Assembly (NCBI GenBank): GCA_025356715.1 | Contig: JANXRU010000016.1 | Span: 1 to 24,391 of the forward strand | From: Bacteroidota bacterium | Lineage (GTDB): Bacteria; Bacteroidota; Bacteroidia; B-17B0; B-17BO | Length of the DNA: 24,391 nucleotides | Reading direction: 5' to 3' | In this document: positions 3,792-20,141 of the stretch, in pieces | Numbering within the stretch: the stretch's first letter is position 1 | Layout: each line of letters begins with the position of its first letter | Notes under the pieces: generated by a model | What the model saw: the letters and a program-made list of their open reading frames with translations, nothing else | The model's database searches: none | Told to the model about the DNA's origin: nothing | Program-made: the position numbers and the translations under genes

Positions 3792-6014
3792 ATGAGAAAA
3801 ATAATCATCATATACTACTTATCAATATTAACATTAAACGCTCAAACAAACGTTTACAGAGATACTTTGACTGTATTTGAGAATGGAGCAAGGCTACTGA
3901 GCCCTTGGGCAGGAGGCTTAAACTATAGCTCTTTTACCCAAATTGATTTAAACTTTGATGGTAAAGACGATATTGTTGCCTTTGATAAGATTTGTAATTC
4001 GGGTGGGAAGTTAAGAGCATACTTAAATATTGGTTCCCCTGGAGTAGCAAAATATAAGCACTCTCCTGAATATCAAGAAAAATTACCCGTTGTCATAGAA
4101 TGGGCTTTGTTTTTTGATTACGATTTAGATGGAAAATCTGATATTTTCACCTATACTACTGGAGGCATAAAAGTATTTAAAAACAACAGTACAGCCTCCT
4201 CAGTTAGCTTTAGTTTAGCAAGCACTTTATTGGTAAGTGATTATAATCCTGGTGGTACTCCTAGTGTTTCAAACATACCATGTAATCCTGTTGGGTTGCC
4301 TGGTATAAGTGATATTGACGGAGATGGTGATTTAGATATACTGACCTATTCTGTATTTGGAATAAAAATGGAATACCATAAAAATATGAGTGTTGAATTA
4401 CATGGAAATTCTAATTTTCTTGAATTTAATATGGTTGATGATTGCTGGGGAGATTTGCAAGAAAACAGTTGCCAAGTTTATTTATTTCAATGTCCTTATC
4501 CAAAACTTTTTCATAAAGCAATTACAGAAAGCACTCATAAAATAGCGCATTCTGGCTCCTGTATTATGTGTTTTGATAATGATGGTGATGGCGATAAAGA
4601 TTTAGTTTTAGGTGATGTTTCTTGTACAACGGTTGAATATGTAGATAACATAGGTTCAGCCAGTAATGCACACATTGGTGATACAACTAAATTATATCCA
4701 AATTATCCAATTAAAGGGAGTACAACTGTTATAAAAATGAATTCATTTCCTTGCACTTATAATTTAGATGTAGATAACGATGGCAAAAAAGATTTAATAG
4801 CGAGCCCTAATATTGTTGCAGGAGCAGAAAACTATCAAAGTGTATGGTATTACAAAAACACGTCCCCTACTCCAACTGTTAACTTTGTGATTCAGAAAAA
4901 AAACTTTTTACAGGAAGATATGATTGAGGTTGGAGAAGGCGCATATCCAGCTTTATTTGACGCAGATGCTGATGGGAAAATGGATTTAATAGTTGGAAAT
5001 TTAGGCTATTATAATGTTAACACAAATAAATCGAGATTGGCTTATTACAGAAACATTGGTACAAATACAACTCCCTCTTTTTCGTTGATTACCAAAGATT
5101 ATCAAAATTTATCGAGTTATAATTTATATTCTATGGCGCCAACTTTTGGTGATATAGATAACGATGGAGATAAAGATTTAATTGTAGGTTCAACAAGCGG
5201 TAGGGTCCACTATTTTGAAAATACTGCGGGCGCAGGAAATCCAGCTATTTTCACAACAGTTGTTACTAATTATCAAAATATATTAGGAAGTAATTTTATT
5301 TATCCTCAATTGGTTGATGTTGACAAAAATGGAACTCTTGATTTATTATTAGGTTCGCAAAATGGTAGAATTTCTTATTGGAAAAATAATGGAACGATCT
5401 CTTCGCCTTCATTTACGCAGCAATCTGTTTATTTAGGAAATGTGGACGTAAAACAATATGGGTATTCTACAGGATATGCCATGCCATACATGTTTGTAGA
5501 TGCTGGTGTAACCAAATTAATTGTGGGAAGCGAAATTGGAAACCTTTATTTATATGATAATATTGACGGTAATGTATTAGGCACATACAACAGAGTAGAC
5601 ACAACTCTTTTTAAAATTAACGAAGGAACGCGCTGTGCTCCCGTGTTTGAAGATATTACCAATGATGGTAAACGTGATTTATTTATTGGAAATCAAGCAG
5701 GAGGATTAGCCTTTTTTAATTCAACCAATGTTTATGGTGTTGGAATTAATGAATTAAACGATAATGAGCCAAACATTACTATTTATCCAAACCCTTGTCA
5801 TGAAAAATTAATGATTTCAATTAATGATAATACATTTGAAGAGCATGCCATTAATATAGTAGATTTACTTGGTCAAATAGTATACTCTGTCAATTCCTTT
5901 AATAAAACAATTGAAATAAATAGTTTAAATTTTAGTAAAGGGGTTTATTTTGTTACACTTATCTCTTTAGAAAATAATTCCAGAAAACTCACTAAAAAAA
6001 TAATTATAAACTAA
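3792..6014 (+). CDS. FG-GAP/VCBS repeat protein with T9SS sorting domain
   Basis: A 740-residue exported protein. The signal peptide is residues 1 to about 18 (ending LNAQ). The body is a run of FG-GAP/VCBS-type beta-propeller repeats. I count nine calcium-loop motifs of the DxDxDGxxD type, beginning at Asp52, Asp109 and Asp174 and continuing to about residue 630 (for example DNDGDGDKD, DADADGKMD, DIDNDGDKD). The last about 75 residues start at NITIYPNPCHEKL, the hallmark of a type A T9SS C-terminal sorting domain. The protein should therefore cross the outer membrane and be surface-attached or released. Such propellers often bind ligands or surfaces; the ligand is unknown. No catalytic domain is visible. 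Its stop codon overlaps the stop of the convergent kinase gene. Confidence 0.92.
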   Translation: MRKIIIIYYLSILTLNAQTNVYRDTLTVFENGARLLSPWAGGLNYSSFTQIDLNFDGKDDIVAFDKICNSGGKLRAYLNIGSPGVAKYKHSPEYQEKLPVVIEWALFFDYDLDGKSDIFTYTTGGIKVFKNNSTASSVSFSLASTLLVSDYNPGGTPSVSNIPCNPVGLPGISDIDGDGDLDILTYSVFGIKMEYHKNMSVELHGNSNFLEFNMVDDCWGDLQENSCQVYLFQCPYPKLFHKAITESTHKIAHSGSCIMCFDNDGDGDKDLVLGDVSCTTVEYVDNIGSASNAHIGDTTKLYPNYPIKGSTTVIKMNSFPCTYNLDVDNDGKKDLIASPNIVAGAENYQSVWYYKNTSPTPTVNFVIQKKNFLQEDMIEVGEGAYPALFDADADGKMDLIVGNLGYYNVNTNKSRLAYYRNIGTNTTPSFSLITKDYQNLSSYNLYSMAPTFGDIDNDGDKDLIVGSTSGRVHYFENTAGAGNPAIFTTVVTNYQNILGSNFIYPQLVDVDKNGTLDLLLGSQNGRISYWKNNGTISSPSFTQQSVYLGNVDVKQYGYSTGYAMPYMFVDAGVTKLIVGSEIGNLYLYDNIDGNVLGTYNRVDTTLFKINEGTRCAPVFEDITNDGKRDLFIGNQAGGLAFFNSTNVYGVGINELNDNEPNITIYPNPCHEKLMISINDNTFEEHAINIVDLLGQIVYSVNSFNKTIEINSLNFSKGVYFVTLISLENNSRKLTKKIIIN

Positions 6015-7348: not shown

Positions 7349-8755
7349 ATGTTAGTTCAACAATTATACACTAGTTGCTTAGCGCAAGGCGCATATTATA
7401 TTCAATCAGAAGGCGAAGCTGCCATTATTGATCCACTAAGAGAATATAAGCCTTATACTGATTTGGCATTAAAAAATAATGCTAAAATAAAATACATTTT
7501 CGAAACTCATTTTCATGCAGATTTCGTTTCAGGGCATTTAGATTTATCAGCTCATACAGGTGCCGAAATTGTTTTTGGTCCAAATGCTCATACCGATTTT
7601 AAAAGCACTGTTGCAACCGATAATCAAGAATTTAAAATTGGTAAACTAACTATTAAAACGCTTCATACTCCAGGCCATACACTTGAGTCAGCAACTTATT
7701 TATTGTTAGACGAAAACCAAAAACCACATTGTATTTTTTCAGGAGATACGCTATTTATTGGAGACGTTGGTCGCCCTGATTTAGCCATTAAATCAGATTT
7801 AACACAGAATGATTTAGCAGGTATGTTATATGATTCACTTCATAATAAAATAATGCCATTGCCAGACGATGTAATCGTATATCCGGCTCATGGAGCTGGT
7901 TCTGCCTGTGGAAAAAACATGAGTAAAGAAACGTTTGATACTTTAGGAAATCAAAAGAAAGTGAATTACGCCCTAGGTAATTTAACAAAAGAAGAATTTA
8001 TCAAAGAATTAACGACTGGTATTTTACCAGCTCCACAATATTTTGCAAAGAATGCAAGTTTGAACAAAAATGGTTACGGTAATTACGATAAAATAACATC
8101 TAATGGTTCAAGGCCATTATCAATTATAGAAACTCAAGAATTATTAAAAACAACTAATGCTATTGTTTTAGATATAAGAAAACCACAAGAGTTTGTGCAA
8201 GAACATATACCACATTCTATCTATATTGGAATAGATGGGCAATTTGCTCCTTGGGTTGGCGCTTTAATTACTGATTTAAAACAAGCAATTATATTAATTA
8301 CTCCAGAAGGCAGAGAAGCCGAAGCTGTGATGCGATTAACACGTGTTGGATACGATAATTGTATTGGATATATAGAAGGTGGAATAGAGGCTTGGAAAAA
8401 AACCGGGAACCCTGTTTCGTCTATAACATCTATTGATGCTACAGAATTTGCAAAAGCCTATAATACAACAACCATCAATGTTTTAGACGTTCGTAAACCT
8501 GGCGAATATGAATCGAGTCATTTAGAAAATGTATGTTCTAAACCGCTTGATTTTATTACTGATTGGGAAGACACTTTGGATAAAAACAAAGAATATCACA
8601 TTCATTGTGCTGGTGGCTATAGAAGTATGATAGCAGCTTCCTTATTAAAAAGAAAAGGATTTGCTAAACTTATTGATGTAGCAGGTGGTTTTGGAGCCAT
8701 AGCGCAAACGGATGTAAAGACCATTTCGAAAACTTGTACCGCAACTAAAAGTTAA
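7349..8755 (+). CDS. CstB-like persulfide dioxygenase-rhodanese fusion
   Basis: A cytoplasmic sulfur-detoxification enzyme of 468 residues with three domains. Residues 1 to about 235 are an ETHE1-type metallo-beta-lactamase fold. The motif THFHADF at 53-59 (His54, His56, Asp58), His110 in TPGH, Asp133 in FSGD and His181 in YPAHG mark the mononuclear iron site. Residues about 257-352 are a rhodanese domain whose active-site loop reads ITPEGREA without cysteine, so it is a pseudo-rhodanese. Residues about 363-462 are a second rhodanese with the active loop HCAGGYRS (Cys420). This order, dioxygenase, dead rhodanese, live rhodanese, is that of Staphylococcus CstB, which oxidises persulfides to sulfite and passes sulfur on to make thiosulfate. 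The position after Asp58 is Phe where ETHE1 has His. No sulfide sensor gene is next to it. Confidence 0.9.
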   Translation: MLVQQLYTSCLAQGAYYIQSEGEAAIIDPLREYKPYTDLALKNNAKIKYIFETHFHADFVSGHLDLSAHTGAEIVFGPNAHTDFKSTVATDNQEFKIGKLTIKTLHTPGHTLESATYLLLDENQKPHCIFSGDTLFIGDVGRPDLAIKSDLTQNDLAGMLYDSLHNKIMPLPDDVIVYPAHGAGSACGKNMSKETFDTLGNQKKVNYALGNLTKEEFIKELTTGILPAPQYFAKNASLNKNGYGNYDKITSNGSRPLSIIETQELLKTTNAIVLDIRKPQEFVQEHIPHSIYIGIDGQFAPWVGALITDLKQAIILITPEGREAEAVMRLTRVGYDNCIGYIEGGIEAWKKTGNPVSSITSIDATEFAKAYNTTTINVLDVRKPGEYESSHLENVCSKPLDFITDWEDTLDKNKEYHIHCAGGYRSMIAASLLKRKGFAKLIDVAGGFGAIAQTDVKTISKTCTATKS

Positions 8756-14392: not shown

Positions 14393-17300
14393 ATGCTTAA
14401 ATCCATTTTCTATTTTTTATTCGCATTCTTTCTATTACTAAAAGCAGAAGCTCAAGAACGAGAATTTAATCCGCCTACTTCCAAAAAAATTCCAAGCCAA
14501 TTAGTTATTCATGGCGATACAGTTATTGATAACTATTACTGGATGCGTGACAAAAATTCTCCTGAAGTTATTAATCACTTATATGCCGAAAATGCTTATG
14601 CCAATAATATAATGAAGCAAAGTACTTTTTTGCAAAAGGTATTATATGAAGAATTCAAATCTCGCAGAAAAGAAACTTATACCTCTTTACCTACAAAAAG
14701 AAAAGGCTATTTATATTACACTAAAAATGAAAAAGGAAAAGAATACCCCATTCATTGCCGTAAAAAAGACACAGCCAATGCACACGAAACCATTATTTTA
14801 GATGTAAATGCCTTAGCAAAAGATCAACCCTATATTAATGTTTCGGGTTTTGCAATTAGTCCTAACCAACAGTGGCTATATTATGGCATCGATAGTAAAG
14901 GCAATAACATCTTAACCTATTATTTAAAACATATTGATAGCGACAGTACTTATCAAATTGAAAAATTAGAAAACATATTAAGTCTTAATTGGGCAGAAGA
15001 TAATAAAACGATTTATTACACTAAACCAGAAGACAAAACCCTTCGATCCTACCGTGTTTACAGGCACATGATTGGTAGGTCAATAAGCGAAGACGAATTA
15101 GTGTTTGAAGAATTAGATAAGACTTTTGCGGTTAGCCTTTCTAAATCATCATCTAAAAACTATTTATTTATTAATGTTACTAAAACAAAATCTACCGAAG
15201 AATGGTATATGCCTGCTGACGGCACTGCCCTAAAGCCAACACTATTTTTGAAACGAGAACCAAGTGTAACCTATAGTTTAGACCATATTGAAGGGGCTGA
15301 TTTTATTATTACCACTAATTTAAATGCCATTAATAATAGATTAGCAACCACAAAAATAACGCTTCCTGCAGTTACTAATTGGAAAGATATTATTCCGCAT
15401 AACGAACACGTTTTATTAGAAGGTATTGAATTCACAAAAGATTTCATGATCGTTAATGAAAAAGAAAATGCTCAACATCGCATAAAAATTGTAAATCTTA
15501 AAACCAAGGAAACAACTATTTTAAATCCTGATTTAGACATTTATGAGATAAACTTTGGCTTTGATGATTACGATTATTATACCACTAAATCCATTAATTA
15601 TAGTTATTCAAACATGGTACATCCCACCAAAACAGTAAACTATAACTTGTATACAAAGGATAAAAAAACGCTACAAGAAGATACCATTTTAGGAAACTAT
15701 AAACCCGAAAATTACGAAACCAAGCGTATTTTTGCTACCGCACGTGATGGTGCTAAAGTGCCCATTACCTTAGTGTATAAAAAAGGCTTAGTGTTAAATG
15801 GTAAAAACCCTTGCTTCCTTTATTCTTATGGCTCTTATGGTGCACCTAACTACAGTGGTTTTAACTCAAGCGCTATTAGTTATATAGATAGAGGTTTTGT
15901 GTATGCCGTTGCTCATATTAGAGGCAGTAATGATTTAGGAAATCAATGGTACGAAGATGGAAAATTGTTCCATAAAAAAAATACGTTTACGGATTTTATT
16001 GATTGCGCCGAGTATTTGATTGCTCAAAATTACACGAACTCCTCTAAATTAACGATTAATGGTGGTAGCGCTGGTGGCCTACTAATGGGTGCTGTTACTA
16101 ATATGCGTCCCGATTTATTTAAATGCGTAGTAGCTAATGTACCTTTTGTGGATGTGATTAATACGATGTTAGATGAATCTATTCCATTAACAACCTTTGA
16201 ATTTGAAGAATGGGGAAATCCAAAAGTAAAAGCGGATTATACATATATGAAATCCTATTCGCCTTACGATAATGTCGTAGCACAAAAATACCCAGATATA
16301 TTGGCTACTGCGGGTTATAATGATGCGCAAGTTGGTTTTTGGGAACCATCCAAATGGATTGCTAAATTAAGAGAATTAAAAACAGACACTAATTTAATCT
16401 TATTTAAAACTACGATGGATGGCGGCCATAATGGCTCGTCAGGGCGTTATGGGCAATATAAAGACTTAGCCTTTGATATGGCTTTTATGATGAGAAGCTT
16501 AGGGATTAAAGAAAACTATATTACCGTAAGAGGAAAAGTAGTAGATGAGTATGGCGCCACTATTCCTTTTGTAAATGTATACATCGAAGGATCTACCAAT
16601 GGAACAACAGCAAATGCGGATGGAGAATTTGTATTAAATGTAAAAGAAGGTGGCAGTTTAGAATTGAATTTTCAAACGTTAGGTTATAAAAAACATAAAG
16701 AAAAAATTGACATTAATACACAAACCTCTGATTTAACCATTAAATTAAAATCAGAAAATATGCAACTGCAAGAAGTATTAGTAAAAGCAAATGCTAAAGA
16801 CCCTGCCTTTGCCATTATGCGCGAAGCTATTAAAAGGCGCAAGAATAACATGGATTTAGTACAATCTTTTTCGGCGGATGTGTATATGAAAAGCAATGTG
16901 AAACTTTTACAAATACCTAAAAAACTACCTTTCTTTATTAATAAAAAAGATATGCCAGATAGTACCAATTTAGGTATGATGTATATGTCGGAATCCGTAG
17001 CTAAGTATTACACCCAAAAACCTGATAAGAAAAAAGAAGAAATGATAGCGAGTAAAGTAGCTGGACAAAAAACAGGCTTTAGCTGGAACCGTGTGGAAGA
17101 TGTATTTGTTAATTTTTATGAGCCGTCTATTAATATGACGGGGTACTCCGAACGCCCTTTTATATCGCCACTTGCCACAGGTTCTTTATTAAGTTATAAA
17201 TACAAATACCTTGGTACTTTTTATGTAGATAATAAACCTATTCATAAAATAAAAATAATTCCACGTCGTAAGGGAGATCCTTTATTTCATGGCGAACTCT

Positions 17301-18958
17301 ATATTAACGAAGGCGATAACTACCAAATTTATTCGAGTGATTTATTTATTACTAAAGATGCCCAAATTGATTTTGTAGATACGGTGCATATTAAGCAAGA
17401 GATGATTAACGTAAATGATAGTATTTGGGTGCCTGTGCAAATGCAAATTTATAGCCATTTAAAAGTATTTGGTTTTGCAGCTACTGATATGAGTAATGCA
17501 ACCATTTCCAATTACCAAGTAAATAGAACTTTCCCAAAGCGTTTCTTTAGTAATGAAGTGTTTAAAATAGAAGATAAAGCCAATAAAAAAGATACCACGT
17601 ATTGGTCTACTACTCGCCCATCTATTTTATCAACCGAAGAAATTAATTATTACCACAAAGGAGATAGTACCTTGAAACGTATGGAAACACCGCGTTATAA
17701 AGACTCTGTATCACAAGCAAATAGTAAATGGCATTTAGGCTTAAGTGGCTTGAGTAAACGTAATGATATTTTAGGAAATTATTTTACTACCAATCCTATT
17801 TTAAATATGGTTAGTTATAATACGGTGGAAGGCGTAAATGCTACACTAAAAGGCATTATATATAATTACGATAAAGAAACTCGAAAAATAAATGGATTAA
17901 CTGCTACTGCCCATTATGGTTTTGCAAATTACAAATGGAGTGGTGGCTTAACTGGTTATAGCTTATTTAATCCTAAACAAAGCCAAAGTATAAGTGTAAC
18001 CGCTGGTAGGTTTATGACACAATATAACCCACACGACCCTATCGGTAACTTTTTTAATATGGCTTATACCCTACTCGACAAAAGTAATTATATGAAAATT
18101 TACCAAAAAGATGTATTCGAAATAGAATATAATCAAGAATTAGCAACTGGGTTATATGTTACAGCTGATGCGCAATACAATCATCGTGAAGCCACTATCA
18201 ATCATAGTTTTTATTATTTTTTGGGCGATAGTTCAAAACATTTTACATCAAACAGAGCTGCTTTTGATGATGGTGCTTTTAACGATAAACCAGCTTTTAA
18301 CCCCGAAGACCTGTTGCAATTTAAACTAGGCTTTAAATTTATTCCGTTTGCAAAATACGAAACGTATCCAACCTTTAAACGCTTATTGGCAACCAAATGG
18401 CCTGAGTTTTCTTTTGTATACAAAAAAGGATTAACAACCAACACCACTAAATTTAATTATGACTATTTAGAACTAGCTATTGGTAAAGACCTTAATTTAA
18501 GAGCCATTGGAGAAATGAAGTTTGATGTATTAGGGGGAATCTTTTTTAATAATGCAAATATGACATTTATTGATTACAAACATTTTAACGGCAATCAAAC
18601 TCTATTTTTAATGAACAAATCCAATTCGGAAATTCCTGGAGTAAGCACTCGTAATCCTATTTCTGAATTCCATGCATTAAATTATTATACCTATAGTACT
18701 AACACCAAGTTTGTAGAATACCATGTATCGCATAACTTTAGAGGTTTTTTTGTAGGCAAAATTCCTTTATTACGTAAAACTAAATTTTATGAAATAGCTG
18801 GTATTAATGGCTTATTAACCGAAACAGGAAATTACAATGAAGTATATGTGGGCTTTGATAAGATATTACAAGTACTAAGGTTTGATGTAGGTACAGCCAT
18901 TTCTGACAGTAAAAAGATAAATTTATTTTATAGATTTGGGTTAAGGTTAAATTTATAA
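14393..18958 (+). CDS. S9 oligopeptidase B-type peptidase fused to CarboxypepD_reg-DUF5686 outer-membrane protein
   Basis: One uninterrupted 1521-codon frame. A signal peptide (1 to about 20, ending AEA before Q) is followed by a complete S9A peptidase: a beta-propeller (about 70-430) and a catalytic alpha/beta-hydrolase domain (about 440-705). The triad is Ser559 (NGGSAGG), Asp644 (GYNDAQV) and His679 (GGHNG); the 85- and 35-residue spacings are those I recall for E. coli oligopeptidase B. At residues 708-710 the chain passes without a linker into ITVRGKVVDEYGATIPFVNVYI, the usual mature start of CarboxypepD_reg-DUF5686 proteins. The regulatory-like beta-sandwich spans about 710-790, then the DUF5686 part runs to 1521, ending like a barrel strand (FGLRLNL). 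Each half has the length of a stand-alone family member. The peptidase probably faces the periplasm, tethered to an outer-membrane barrel. A vWA gene follows 10 bases later. Confidence 0.93.
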   Translation: MLKSIFYFLFAFFLLLKAEAQEREFNPPTSKKIPSQLVIHGDTVIDNYYWMRDKNSPEVINHLYAENAYANNIMKQSTFLQKVLYEEFKSRRKETYTSLPTKRKGYLYYTKNEKGKEYPIHCRKKDTANAHETIILDVNALAKDQPYINVSGFAISPNQQWLYYGIDSKGNNILTYYLKHIDSDSTYQIEKLENILSLNWAEDNKTIYYTKPEDKTLRSYRVYRHMIGRSISEDELVFEELDKTFAVSLSKSSSKNYLFINVTKTKSTEEWYMPADGTALKPTLFLKREPSVTYSLDHIEGADFIITTNLNAINNRLATTKITLPAVTNWKDIIPHNEHVLLEGIEFTKDFMIVNEKENAQHRIKIVNLKTKETTILNPDLDIYEINFGFDDYDYYTTKSINYSYSNMVHPTKTVNYNLYTKDKKTLQEDTILGNYKPENYETKRIFATARDGAKVPITLVYKKGLVLNGKNPCFLYSYGSYGAPNYSGFNSSAISYIDRGFVYAVAHIRGSNDLGNQWYEDGKLFHKKNTFTDFIDCAEYLIAQNYTNSSKLTINGGSAGGLLMGAVTNMRPDLFKCVVANVPFVDVINTMLDESIPLTTFEFEEWGNPKVKADYTYMKSYSPYDNVVAQKYPDILATAGYNDAQVGFWEPSKWIAKLRELKTDTNLILFKTTMDGGHNGSSGRYGQYKDLAFDMAFMMRSLGIKENYITVRGKVVDEYGATIPFVNVYIEGSTNGTTANADGEFVLNVKEGGSLELNFQTLGYKKHKEKIDINTQTSDLTIKLKSENMQLQEVLVKANAKDPAFAIMREAIKRRKNNMDLVQSFSADVYMKSNVKLLQIPKKLPFFINKKDMPDSTNLGMMYMSESVAKYYTQKPDKKKEEMIASKVAGQKTGFSWNRVEDVFVNFYEPSINMTGYSERPFISPLATGSLLSYKYKYLGTFYVDNKPIHKIKIIPRRKGDPLFHGELYINEGDNYQIYSSDLFITKDAQIDFVDTVHIKQEMINVNDSIWVPVQMQIYSHLKVFGFAATDMSNATISNYQVNRTFPKRFFSNEVFKIEDKANKKDTTYWSTTRPSILSTEEINYYHKGDSTLKRMETPRYKDSVSQANSKWHLGLSGLSKRNDILGNYFTTNPILNMVSYNTVEGVNATLKGIIYNYDKETRKINGLTATAHYGFANYKWSGGLTGYSLFNPKQSQSISVTAGRFMTQYNPHDPIGNFFNMAYTLLDKSNYMKIYQKDVFEIEYNQELATGLYVTADAQYNHREATINHSFYYFLGDSSKHFTSNRAAFDDGAFNDKPAFNPEDLLQFKLGFKFIPFAKYETYPTFKRLLATKWPEFSFVYKKGLTTNTTKFNYDYLELAIGKDLNLRAIGEMKFDVLGGIFFNNANMTFIDYKHFNGNQTLFLMNKSNSEIPGVSTRNPISEFHALNYYTYSTNTKFVEYHVSHNFRGFFVGKIPLLRKTKFYEIAGINGLLTETGNYNEVYVGFDKILQVLRFDVGTAISDSKKINLFYRFGLRLNL

Positions 18959-18968
18959 ATATACACTC

Positions 18969-20141
18969 TTGAGAATTATTGTTTTATATCTTCTATTTTA
19001 TAGTTTTTCTCAAAAATCTATAGCTCAAAACAGTTTGATAATTGTTGATGATGTAAACAAAGATATAGGCTTGCAAGAAAATATTTATAAAGTAAGAGCA
19101 GATTACACCATCACTAATCATCAGGCTAAAAATTTATATTTATTAAGAGCCGATGCGGAAAAAGGAATTACCATTCGTTCTTCTAAAAAAACCTTAAAAT
19201 CCAACGACACAGCCATCATTGTAGTAGAGTTTATACCAAAAAATACAGGAAAGTTTAATGAAGCTATTCATTTAATAACCAGTGCCGATGCTTTACCTTT
19301 CAAATTAAGTCTTTCGGGTACTATTAAATCCATTAAAACAAACGACAAAACAGCTTGCTTTTATTTTAAGAAACCCAATACAGCGGGCGTAAAAAACATA
19401 GAGCCAATATTGGTTCCTGAGAAAAATGAGCCTAAAGATGTAAGTAATCAAATCCCTGACAAAAATTCTAATACAAGCACTACAACATCTTTACCAACTA
19501 AAACTACTACTCCGCAACATACTATAACGCCTATTGTTACCAAAGAACCCGATAAATTAACAAACCAAACAGTTTTAGATAATACGAGTTATAAACCCAA
19601 CAATATTATTTTTTTAGTAGATGTATCGAGTTCTATGAGCGATACTTTAAAATTAAAAGTGATGCAAAGTGCCTTACATTATTTAATTTCTGCCCTCCGG
19701 CCGATGGACAAAATTTCGTTTGTAACTTATGCGGATACAGTGAAACTTTTACGAGACGGCATCAGTGGCAACCAAAAAGAAGATTTAAATGGGGTAGTTA
19801 ATAAACTAAAAGCTCGCGGAGGAACTAAAGGTAGAAAAGCTATATTATTTAGTTTAGATTTGGCTCTCAAAAACTACATTGGTAATGGGAACAATCAAAT
19901 CATTTTAGCAACTGATGGCAAGTTTCGGTTTTATAGTGAAGACCAACAAATCTACTTACAAAAACAAGGAACAAAATTAATAAAACTTAGTACCATTGCC
20001 TTTGGTAATGATAAAGATGCCATGGCAAACCTAAAAGAAATAGCAGAGATTGGAAAAGGAAACTTTATACATATTAAAAACAGGCACAAAGCGCAAGAGC
20101 AATTACTGGAAGAAATAAAAGAAAATAGCTTGATTAGGTAA
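18969..20141 (+). CDS. Secreted DUF1573-like/von Willebrand A domain protein, TTG start
   Basis: A 390-residue exported protein. The frame opens with TTG at 18969, only 10 bases after the fusion gene's stop, and a signal peptide (1 to about 20, ending SIAQ) begins right there. No ATG is in frame before the vWA domain, so TTG is the start. Residues about 35-118 form an Ig-like domain like DUF1573 (TITNHQAKNLYLL to SLSGTI). A Thr/Pro/Asn-rich linker follows (about 145-205). The vWA domain (about 211-385) has a full metal-ion-dependent adhesion site: DVSSS (Asp218, Ser220, Ser222), Thr286 in RGGTKG and Asp316 in ATDG. It should bind a divalent cation and a protein partner in the periplasm or at the surface. 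Tight spacing suggests co-expression with the peptidase-DUF5686 protein. Confidence 0.88.
   Translation: MRIIVLYLLFYSFSQKSIAQNSLIIVDDVNKDIGLQENIYKVRADYTITNHQAKNLYLLRADAEKGITIRSSKKTLKSNDTAIIVVEFIPKNTGKFNEAIHLITSADALPFKLSLSGTIKSIKTNDKTACFYFKKPNTAGVKNIEPILVPEKNEPKDVSNQIPDKNSNTSTTTSLPTKTTTPQHTITPIVTKEPDKLTNQTVLDNTSYKPNNIIFLVDVSSSMSDTLKLKVMQSALHYLISALRPMDKISFVTYADTVKLLRDGISGNQKEDLNGVVNKLKARGGTKGRKAILFSLDLALKNYIGNGNNQIILATDGKFRFYSEDQQIYLQKQGTKLIKLSTIAFGNDKDAMANLKEIAEIGKGNFIHIKNRHKAQEQLLEEIKENSLIR

Follow-up and report, generated by a model that had tools for sequence, protein, structure and literature searches.

A conserved fusion of an oligopeptidase-B-type peptidase to DUF5686, a family with a predicted Omp85-like barrel, in Bacteroidota

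What might a peptidase do when it is built into the same polypeptide as a membrane barrel? This question is raised by a gene of a Bacteroidota bacterium (assembly GCA_025356715.1, contig JANXRU010000016.1), in which a first-pass annotation of a 24,391-nt stretch (the window, read on the forward strand) had reported an S9 oligopeptidase fused in frame to a DUF5686 protein, and had suggested that the fusion could link the processing of peptides to their passage through the barrel or to its assembly. The fusion, its domain order, its intact catalytic residues and its conservation are established by the results below, as is the barrel fold at the level of a structural model. On balance, we consider it probable that an Omp85-like barrel anchors the oligopeptidase-B-type peptidase at the periplasmic face of the outer membrane.

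One open frame encodes both halves

The fusion gene spans 14393..18958 (this and all other parts of the gene lie on the plus strand) as a single ATG-start open reading frame (ORF) of 1521 amino acids with zero internal stops, as first annotated. The protein begins with a signal peptide, read from the sequence at residues 1 to 21 (...LLLKAEAQ; 14393..14455) and without a lipobox, followed by the Peptidase_S9_N β-propeller (residues 30 to 429, 14480..15679; Pfam PF02897, 291.8 bits) and the Peptidase_S9 catalytic α/β-hydrolase domain (residues 493 to 704, 15869..16504; Pfam). Beyond the junction come a CarboxypepD_reg-like domain (CarbopepD_reg_2, PF13715; residues 712 to 797, 16526..16783), a DUF5686 middle domain with long antiparallel strands in the AF2 secondary structure (about residues 801 to 1110, 16793..17722), and a β-barrel (residues 1123 to 1519, 17759..18949) whose fold in the model is Omp85-like. 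All four Pfam domains scored above their own cut-offs. The DUF5686 match (PF18939) runs over residues 808 to 1488, covers positions 1 to 669 of the 669-position profile and scores 610.4 bits against a gathering cut-off of 39.2. Both halves are thus complete, as had been claimed. Two details of the earlier description were adjusted: the DUF5686 part is present, with 681 residues by Pfam rather than 810 (the entire second half has 815), and the junction, previously placed at 16511-16540, lies slightly upstream at residues 705 to 711 (about 16505..16525).

The fusion is shared by many proteins

A protein search scored on residues 400 to 1100 found 313 relatives. Among the best 120 of these, 104 were full-length fusions in the same domain order, with 43 to 96% identity over the searched stretch, and 4 were partial fusions; the other 12 comprised three DUF5686-only records, five S9-only records and four proteins with the reversed order. 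One DUF5686-only record (P0104) starts partway through the S9 half and is probably a truncated fusion. The fusion is therefore neither a product of chance nor an artefact, and the idea that it might be a peculiarity of one genome did not hold. An assembly or frameshift artefact, or a functionless one-off, could have been suspected from the known stand-alone versions of both halves and from one locus with an in-frame stop (L018, described below). The artefact reading is refuted by the same domain order in the 104 other full-length proteins, one of which, from Fulvivirga ligni, is located on a 6.5-Mb contig; the invariance of the catalytic triad and the position of the fused S9 halves on one side of a tree branch also speak against it, and we regard this explanation as extremely improbable.

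In a search of genome contigs, 22 loci encoded S9 relatives, of which three (L001, L017 and L018) ran into DUF5686 and 19 did not. L017 crosses the junction as one open frame, as does L001 before it runs off its contig. L018, from a metagenome-assembled genome, has a single in-frame stop, located within its CarboxypepD_reg stretch, which is either a real break or a sequence error. We also searched 395 genomes sampled from the class to which L017's genome belongs, scoring the two best candidates per genome, where any fusion would be expected at the top. A match to at least one of the halves was found in 392 of these, and five carry the fusion (G001, G056, G093, G314 and G292, the last cut at a contig end). 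All five have additional DUF5686 genes. DUF5686 was found in 11/11 genomes searched, an unfair sample, as these genomes were picked for an S9 relative or the fusion.

The window copy and the 104 other full-length fusions were aligned (n = 105). A crude hydrophobic-run rule for signal peptides was positive in 96 of the 105, including the window copy, and a lipobox-like pattern occurred in three. The spacing from His679 to Gly714, across the junction, was 36 in 105/105; since 378 of 1430 windows of 36 residues (26%) were equally free of length change, this constancy has little weight.

The peptidase half resembles oligopeptidase B

The first half has both the propeller and the α/β-hydrolase fold of the oligopeptidase B type (S9A). 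Its nearest solved structure is oligopeptidase B of Serratia (7ne7, 567 bits), followed by the trypanosomatid oligopeptidases B 4bp8 and 2xe4. Compared with the Serratia enzyme (7ne7/7ywp), the fusion differs by its signal peptide and by the 815-residue C-terminal barrel part. The predicted triad positions were right: Ser559 (16067-16069), which sits in a GGSAGG context, Asp644 (16322-16324) and His679 (16427-16429) are invariant in 105/105 aligned fusions.

The putative acidic S1 residues for Arg/Lys fall, by offset from Ser, at positions 603 and 605, where the window copy has E603 and E605. Across the fusions, position 603 is Glu in 94/105 and His in 11/105, position 605 is E or D in 84/105, and E606 is invariant. 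Oligopeptidase B cleaves after basic residues, and its propeller excludes substrates of >3 kDa (PMC8533160). By analogy, the substrates of the fusion are expected to be short peptides and not whole proteins, because the propeller would bar larger ones.

The second half combines a relative of the SusC-type extension domain with a modeled barrel

In a profile search of the PDB, the CarboxypepD_reg domain proved to be related to the N-terminal extension (NTE) of SusC-type proteins, matching the SusC homolog 8aa4 (E 1.6e-16) and RagA 6sli (E 1.8e-7), and Foldseek matched it to the NTE domain 9hfj. The DUF5686 middle domain is possibly LolA-like. Weak LolA_like Pfam matches anywhere along the protein occurred in 7/31 DUF5686 proteins (best E 0.0062); none was listed by Pfam for the window protein. 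The N-terminal half of a DUF5686 gene of 864 codons (L140, G005:C4:306962-307183) resembled LolA_like with E 2.3e-5, under the curated cut-off, which hints at the fold that the middle domain may have. When the middle domain was compared by hhalign, the probability was 9.7% against LolA and 0.2% against DUF4292.

Structure comparison of the model, with the barrel alone compared, gave the C-terminal barrel a BamA/Sam50 fold, in agreement with the earlier reading of the second half as a barrel. By a manual count on the DSSP assignment of the model, it has 15 long strands and a short, broken first one; Omp85 proteins have 16. The longest loop, between counted strands 11 and 12, carries the conserved DYKHFNGNQT (residues 1394 to 1403, 18572..18601; from the consensus and invariant columns) and stands at the position of Omp85 loop 6. 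The motif of that loop in Omp85 proteins is (V/L)RG(F/Y), which was not found in the strand 11-12 loop, where the consensus has DYKHFNGNQT. No POTRA family was found in Pfam scans of the window protein.

A possible single origin with later losses of the peptidase

In the S9 trees, from which two loci with broken S9 frames (L021 and L022) were excluded, the fusions fell on one side of a branch. Support was 97 in FastTree, where 69 fusion rows stood against 37 and, in a later comparison, 49 stand-alone rows, together with 11 reversed and 2 tandem ones. The fusions again lay on one side in an IQ-TREE mixture-model tree of 56 rows, with support 49. None of the 49 stand-alone rows fell among the fusions; 44 of them were of oligopeptidase-B grade and five were distant (~27% identity). 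Grouping the fusion and reversed S9 parts together was not rejected (p 0.73), and the reversed S9 parts form a group of their own, possibly sister to the fusions.

In the DUF5686 trees (FastTree, 113 rows; IQ-TREE, 41 rows), stand-alone proteins (P0109/P0110, P0124 and P0126-P0128) nest among the fusions, and the starred branches of the 41-row tree require at least four changes between the fusion and stand-alone labels. Placing all fusions in one DUF5686 group was rejected (p 7.6e-12), as was placing all stand-alones in one (p 2.4e-11). The fusions together with four nested stand-alones form one side of a branch with a support of only 73. The same 23 of 26 fusions of the small set make up a starred clade in both trees, to which the DUF5686 tree adds the four nested stand-alones. 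The simplest reading of these sequences would be a single fusion event, after which the peptidase was lost at least three times; the clearest case of loss is P0110, with its own signal peptide and then CarboxypepD_reg. A large stand-alone DUF5686 group lies within the fusions in FastTree, and its position lacks resolution in IQ-TREE. Because the S9 and DUF5686 trees conflict on some branches, e.g., at L036 and P0101/P0108, swapping of halves between lineages is possible.

A probable periplasmic location of the membrane-anchored peptidase

Under the explanation we favor, the protein would be exported by Sec and the peptidase would fold in the periplasm, with the CarboxypepD_reg and middle domains between peptidase and barrel, at the place that POTRA domains have in Omp85 proteins. 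There, the propeller-gated enzyme would cut short peptides (to about 3 kDa) after Arg/Lys as these emerge on the inner side of the outer membrane, and the barrel would probably act as an anchor, or have a function of its own independent of the enzyme in cis. We infer that the peptidase probably faces the periplasm, the topology with the better support, because of the signal peptide, the relation of CarboxypepD_reg to SusC, the placing of the enzyme ahead of the barrel, and the precedent of PlpD. In PlpD, a serine hydrolase precedes an Omp85 barrel; it was formerly thought to be exported and was then found to be exclusively periplasmic (PMC11116518). PlpD and the patatin-like Omp85 proteins (formerly 'type Vd') share with the fusion an N-terminal serine hydrolase, a linker region (periplasmic) and a C-terminal Omp85-type barrel, which in the fusion is modeled. 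Unlike PlpD, the fusion has an S9 peptidase instead of a patatin (Pfam) and CarboxypepD_reg plus a middle domain apparently in place of POTRA, and a sequence-profile link to Omp85 was not found for it with Pfam PF01103 or hhalign. Within the fusion lineage, nested stand-alone DUF5686 proteins keep the barrel without an enzyme in cis, which argues against a tight form of the coupling between peptide processing and the barrel that the first-pass annotation had suggested.

Several results weigh against this explanation. The Omp85 link depends on a predicted fold: PF01103 (Omp85) gave no Pfam match at E values up to 10, and hhalign gave no significant homology by sequence, aligning the DUF5686 barrel end to end with an Omp85 set at a probability of 2.3% (E 0.020), compared with 96.8% for a positive control of two Omp85 groups. 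(The set held the last 420 residues at 22 of 24 loci from eight genomes; L107, too short, and L122, with no frame across the locus center, were dropped.) The Foldseek match to BamA 8xnb had low TM-scores (0.27 by query, 0.52 by target) with 8.2 Å, and the same list holds teneurins, a pilus usher and another barrel. On the enzyme side, the NCBIfam name was oligopeptidase B (NF007511), with 591.5 bits against an equivalog cut-off of 1313; we therefore file the peptidase as oligopeptidase-B-type and not as an NF007511 equivalog. With His at position 603 in 11 of the 105 fusions, the Arg/Lys preference may not extend to every fusion. A stand-alone oligopeptidase B accompanies the fusion in G001 (41% identity) and G314 (45%); in G056, G093 and G292 the next-best S9 protein was only 28 to 29% identical, and a second oligopeptidase-B-grade gene was not found in these three genomes. 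The outer-membrane location, the periplasmic side, the activity, the specificity and the substrates are all deduced.

Different roles could be served by such an enzyme. One that we hold possible but doubtful is nutrition, in which the periplasmic-face enzyme would cut oligopeptides imported by SusC/RagA-type transporters, for use by further peptidases and inner-membrane transporters. The CarboxypepD_reg domain is common to SusC-type importers, RagA included, and the size limit set by the propeller (PMC8533160) fits this role, but the Pfam scan of 19 neighboring window proteins found no transporter family or related system, and L017 and L034-L036 have different genes adjacent to the fusion. It is unlikely, in our estimate, that the enzyme serves outer-membrane protein quality control by clearing peptide debris at an insertase-like DUF5686 barrel, as periplasmic proteases do near BAM; the modeled Omp85-like fold and the periplasmic quality control that Heinz and Lithgow offered for the 'Metallo' Omp85 subfamily (PMC4104836) favor such a role, whereas stand-alone DUF5686 proteins nest in the fusion clade and the role would presuppose a hypothetical protein insertion by DUF5686. 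The destruction of cationic antimicrobial peptides crossing the outer membrane would agree with the role in resistance to certain antimicrobial peptides proposed for bacterial oligopeptidase B (PMC8533160). No supporting context was found for it among the scanned neighbors, and with the patchy occurrence of the fusion (five of the 395 genomes) the prospect of such a defense appears slim. By sequence, nutrient peptides, assembly debris and cationic peptides are all candidate substrates.

A different topology would follow from type Vd-like surface display, with the barrel moving the peptidase out to the cell surface. An N-terminal hydrolase before a C-terminal Omp85-like barrel was formerly interpreted as the layout of type Vd secretion (PMC11116518). 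In the same source, however, the PlpD patatin domain is exclusively periplasmic and translocation of a folded domain is judged unfavorable, and the domain between enzyme and barrel in the fusion is of the SusC N-terminal-extension type; we consider surface display improbable. A broader proposal, which extends the anchored periplasmic peptidase and which we offer tentatively and with some doubt, is that DUF5686 might be an unrecognized Bacteroidota family of Omp85 fold in outer-membrane (lipo)protein biogenesis. SusC-type NTE and LolA-like domains would replace POTRA, an ancient branch would have carried the oligopeptidase and lost it several times, and peptidase and barrel would belong to one pathway.

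Heinz and Lithgow distinguished ten Omp85 subfamilies in 2014, including patatin, metallo and WD40 forms; for the metallo form they proposed a role either in periplasmic quality control or in export (PMC4104836). In their 'Metallo' and 'WD40' subfamilies an Omp85 barrel carries an N-terminal domain other than POTRA, as the fusion would by its model and Pfam domains. The section of that article on the ten subfamilies mentions no S9 peptidase and no DUF5686, and the word start 'peptidase' occurs 0 times in its text. We found no paper on DUF5686 or the S9-DUF5686 fusion in the openly licensed literature (CC0/CC BY/CC BY-SA). If the link between Omp85 and DUF5686 is purely structural, sequence searches with Omp85 barrels would miss DUF5686. 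As modeled, the fusion would add a peptidase on DUF5686 to the known plan of an enzyme on an Omp85-like barrel, and the peptidase would join the small number of enzymes known to be carried by such barrels. A family of so far unassigned role would gain a testable, Omp85-like fold, and should the peptidase lie in the periplasm, as the hydrolase of PlpD does, the Omp85-type scaffold would have served more than once as an enzyme platform on the inner side of the outer membrane. Where oligopeptidase B and DUF5686 are separate proteins, the fusion suggests that they may be partners.

Related architectures in Bacteroidota

With the front part of P0117 as query, 61 proteins were found. The reversed proteins (P0117-P0120 and most of P0237-P0282), 1153 to 1190 amino acids long when complete, consist of CarboxypepD_reg, a further module and then an oligopeptidase-B-type S9 part; the order was shown directly for P0117-P0120 and by precomputed domains for the others. 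Those with names come mainly from Flavobacteriales (Cryomorphaceae, Winogradskyella). Like the fusion, the reversed proteins (P0117, P0268 and P0272 among them) join CarboxypepD_reg and a further module to an oligopeptidase-B-type S9 part, but in the opposite order, with the peptidase C-terminal. No DUF5686 match was found by Pfam in P0117-P0120. CarboxypepD_reg and ~35 further residues are homologous to the DUF5686 half (99.1%, E 8e-19); a DUF5686-like nature of the remaining module was rejected, with hhalign giving 0.6% or 7.4%. Bacteroidota thus have an oligopeptidase-B-type peptidase joined to either end of a CarboxypepD_reg module, in the fusion ahead of it and in the reversed proteins behind it. 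Two open frames with an S9 part, in G347 (1171 codons) and G314:C281 (L096, 1199 codons), may be of the reversed kind.

The stand-alone CarboxypepD_reg-DUF5686 proteins match the whole second half of the fusion (37 to 69% identity among the complete ones listed) and have no peptidase; several of them are nested in the fusion clade. A protein of 743 amino acids (P0286) has a CarboxypepD_reg front joined to a β-lactamase-family serine hydrolase (PF00144, Pfam), so CarboxypepD_reg-type modules bear more than one type of hydrolase. P0112-P0115 are tandem S9-S9 proteins of 1362 to 1401 amino acids with two prolyl-oligopeptidase-family enzymes (P0112, P0114 and P0115 were checked with Pfam).

Gene neighborhood and the rest of the window

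Ten bases past the fusion, a gene at 18969..20141 (plus strand) encodes a protein with DUF1573 and VWA domains (Pfam). It adjoins the fusion in L017 too, with 62% identity, and the order SAM-HAT, phoH, mazG, fusion and VWA is common to L017 and the window; L017 has an extra ORF of ~510 codons between mazG and the fusion. At L034-L036, other genes flank the fusion and the DUF1573 and VWA gene is not kept. The window contains no tRNA and no Rfam family at the gathering threshold. At 3792-6014 it encodes an FG-GAP protein with a Por_Secre_tail, and the host therefore probably has a type IX secretion system. A further protein, encoded at 7349-8755, combines a metallo-β-lactamase-fold domain with two rhodanese stretches.

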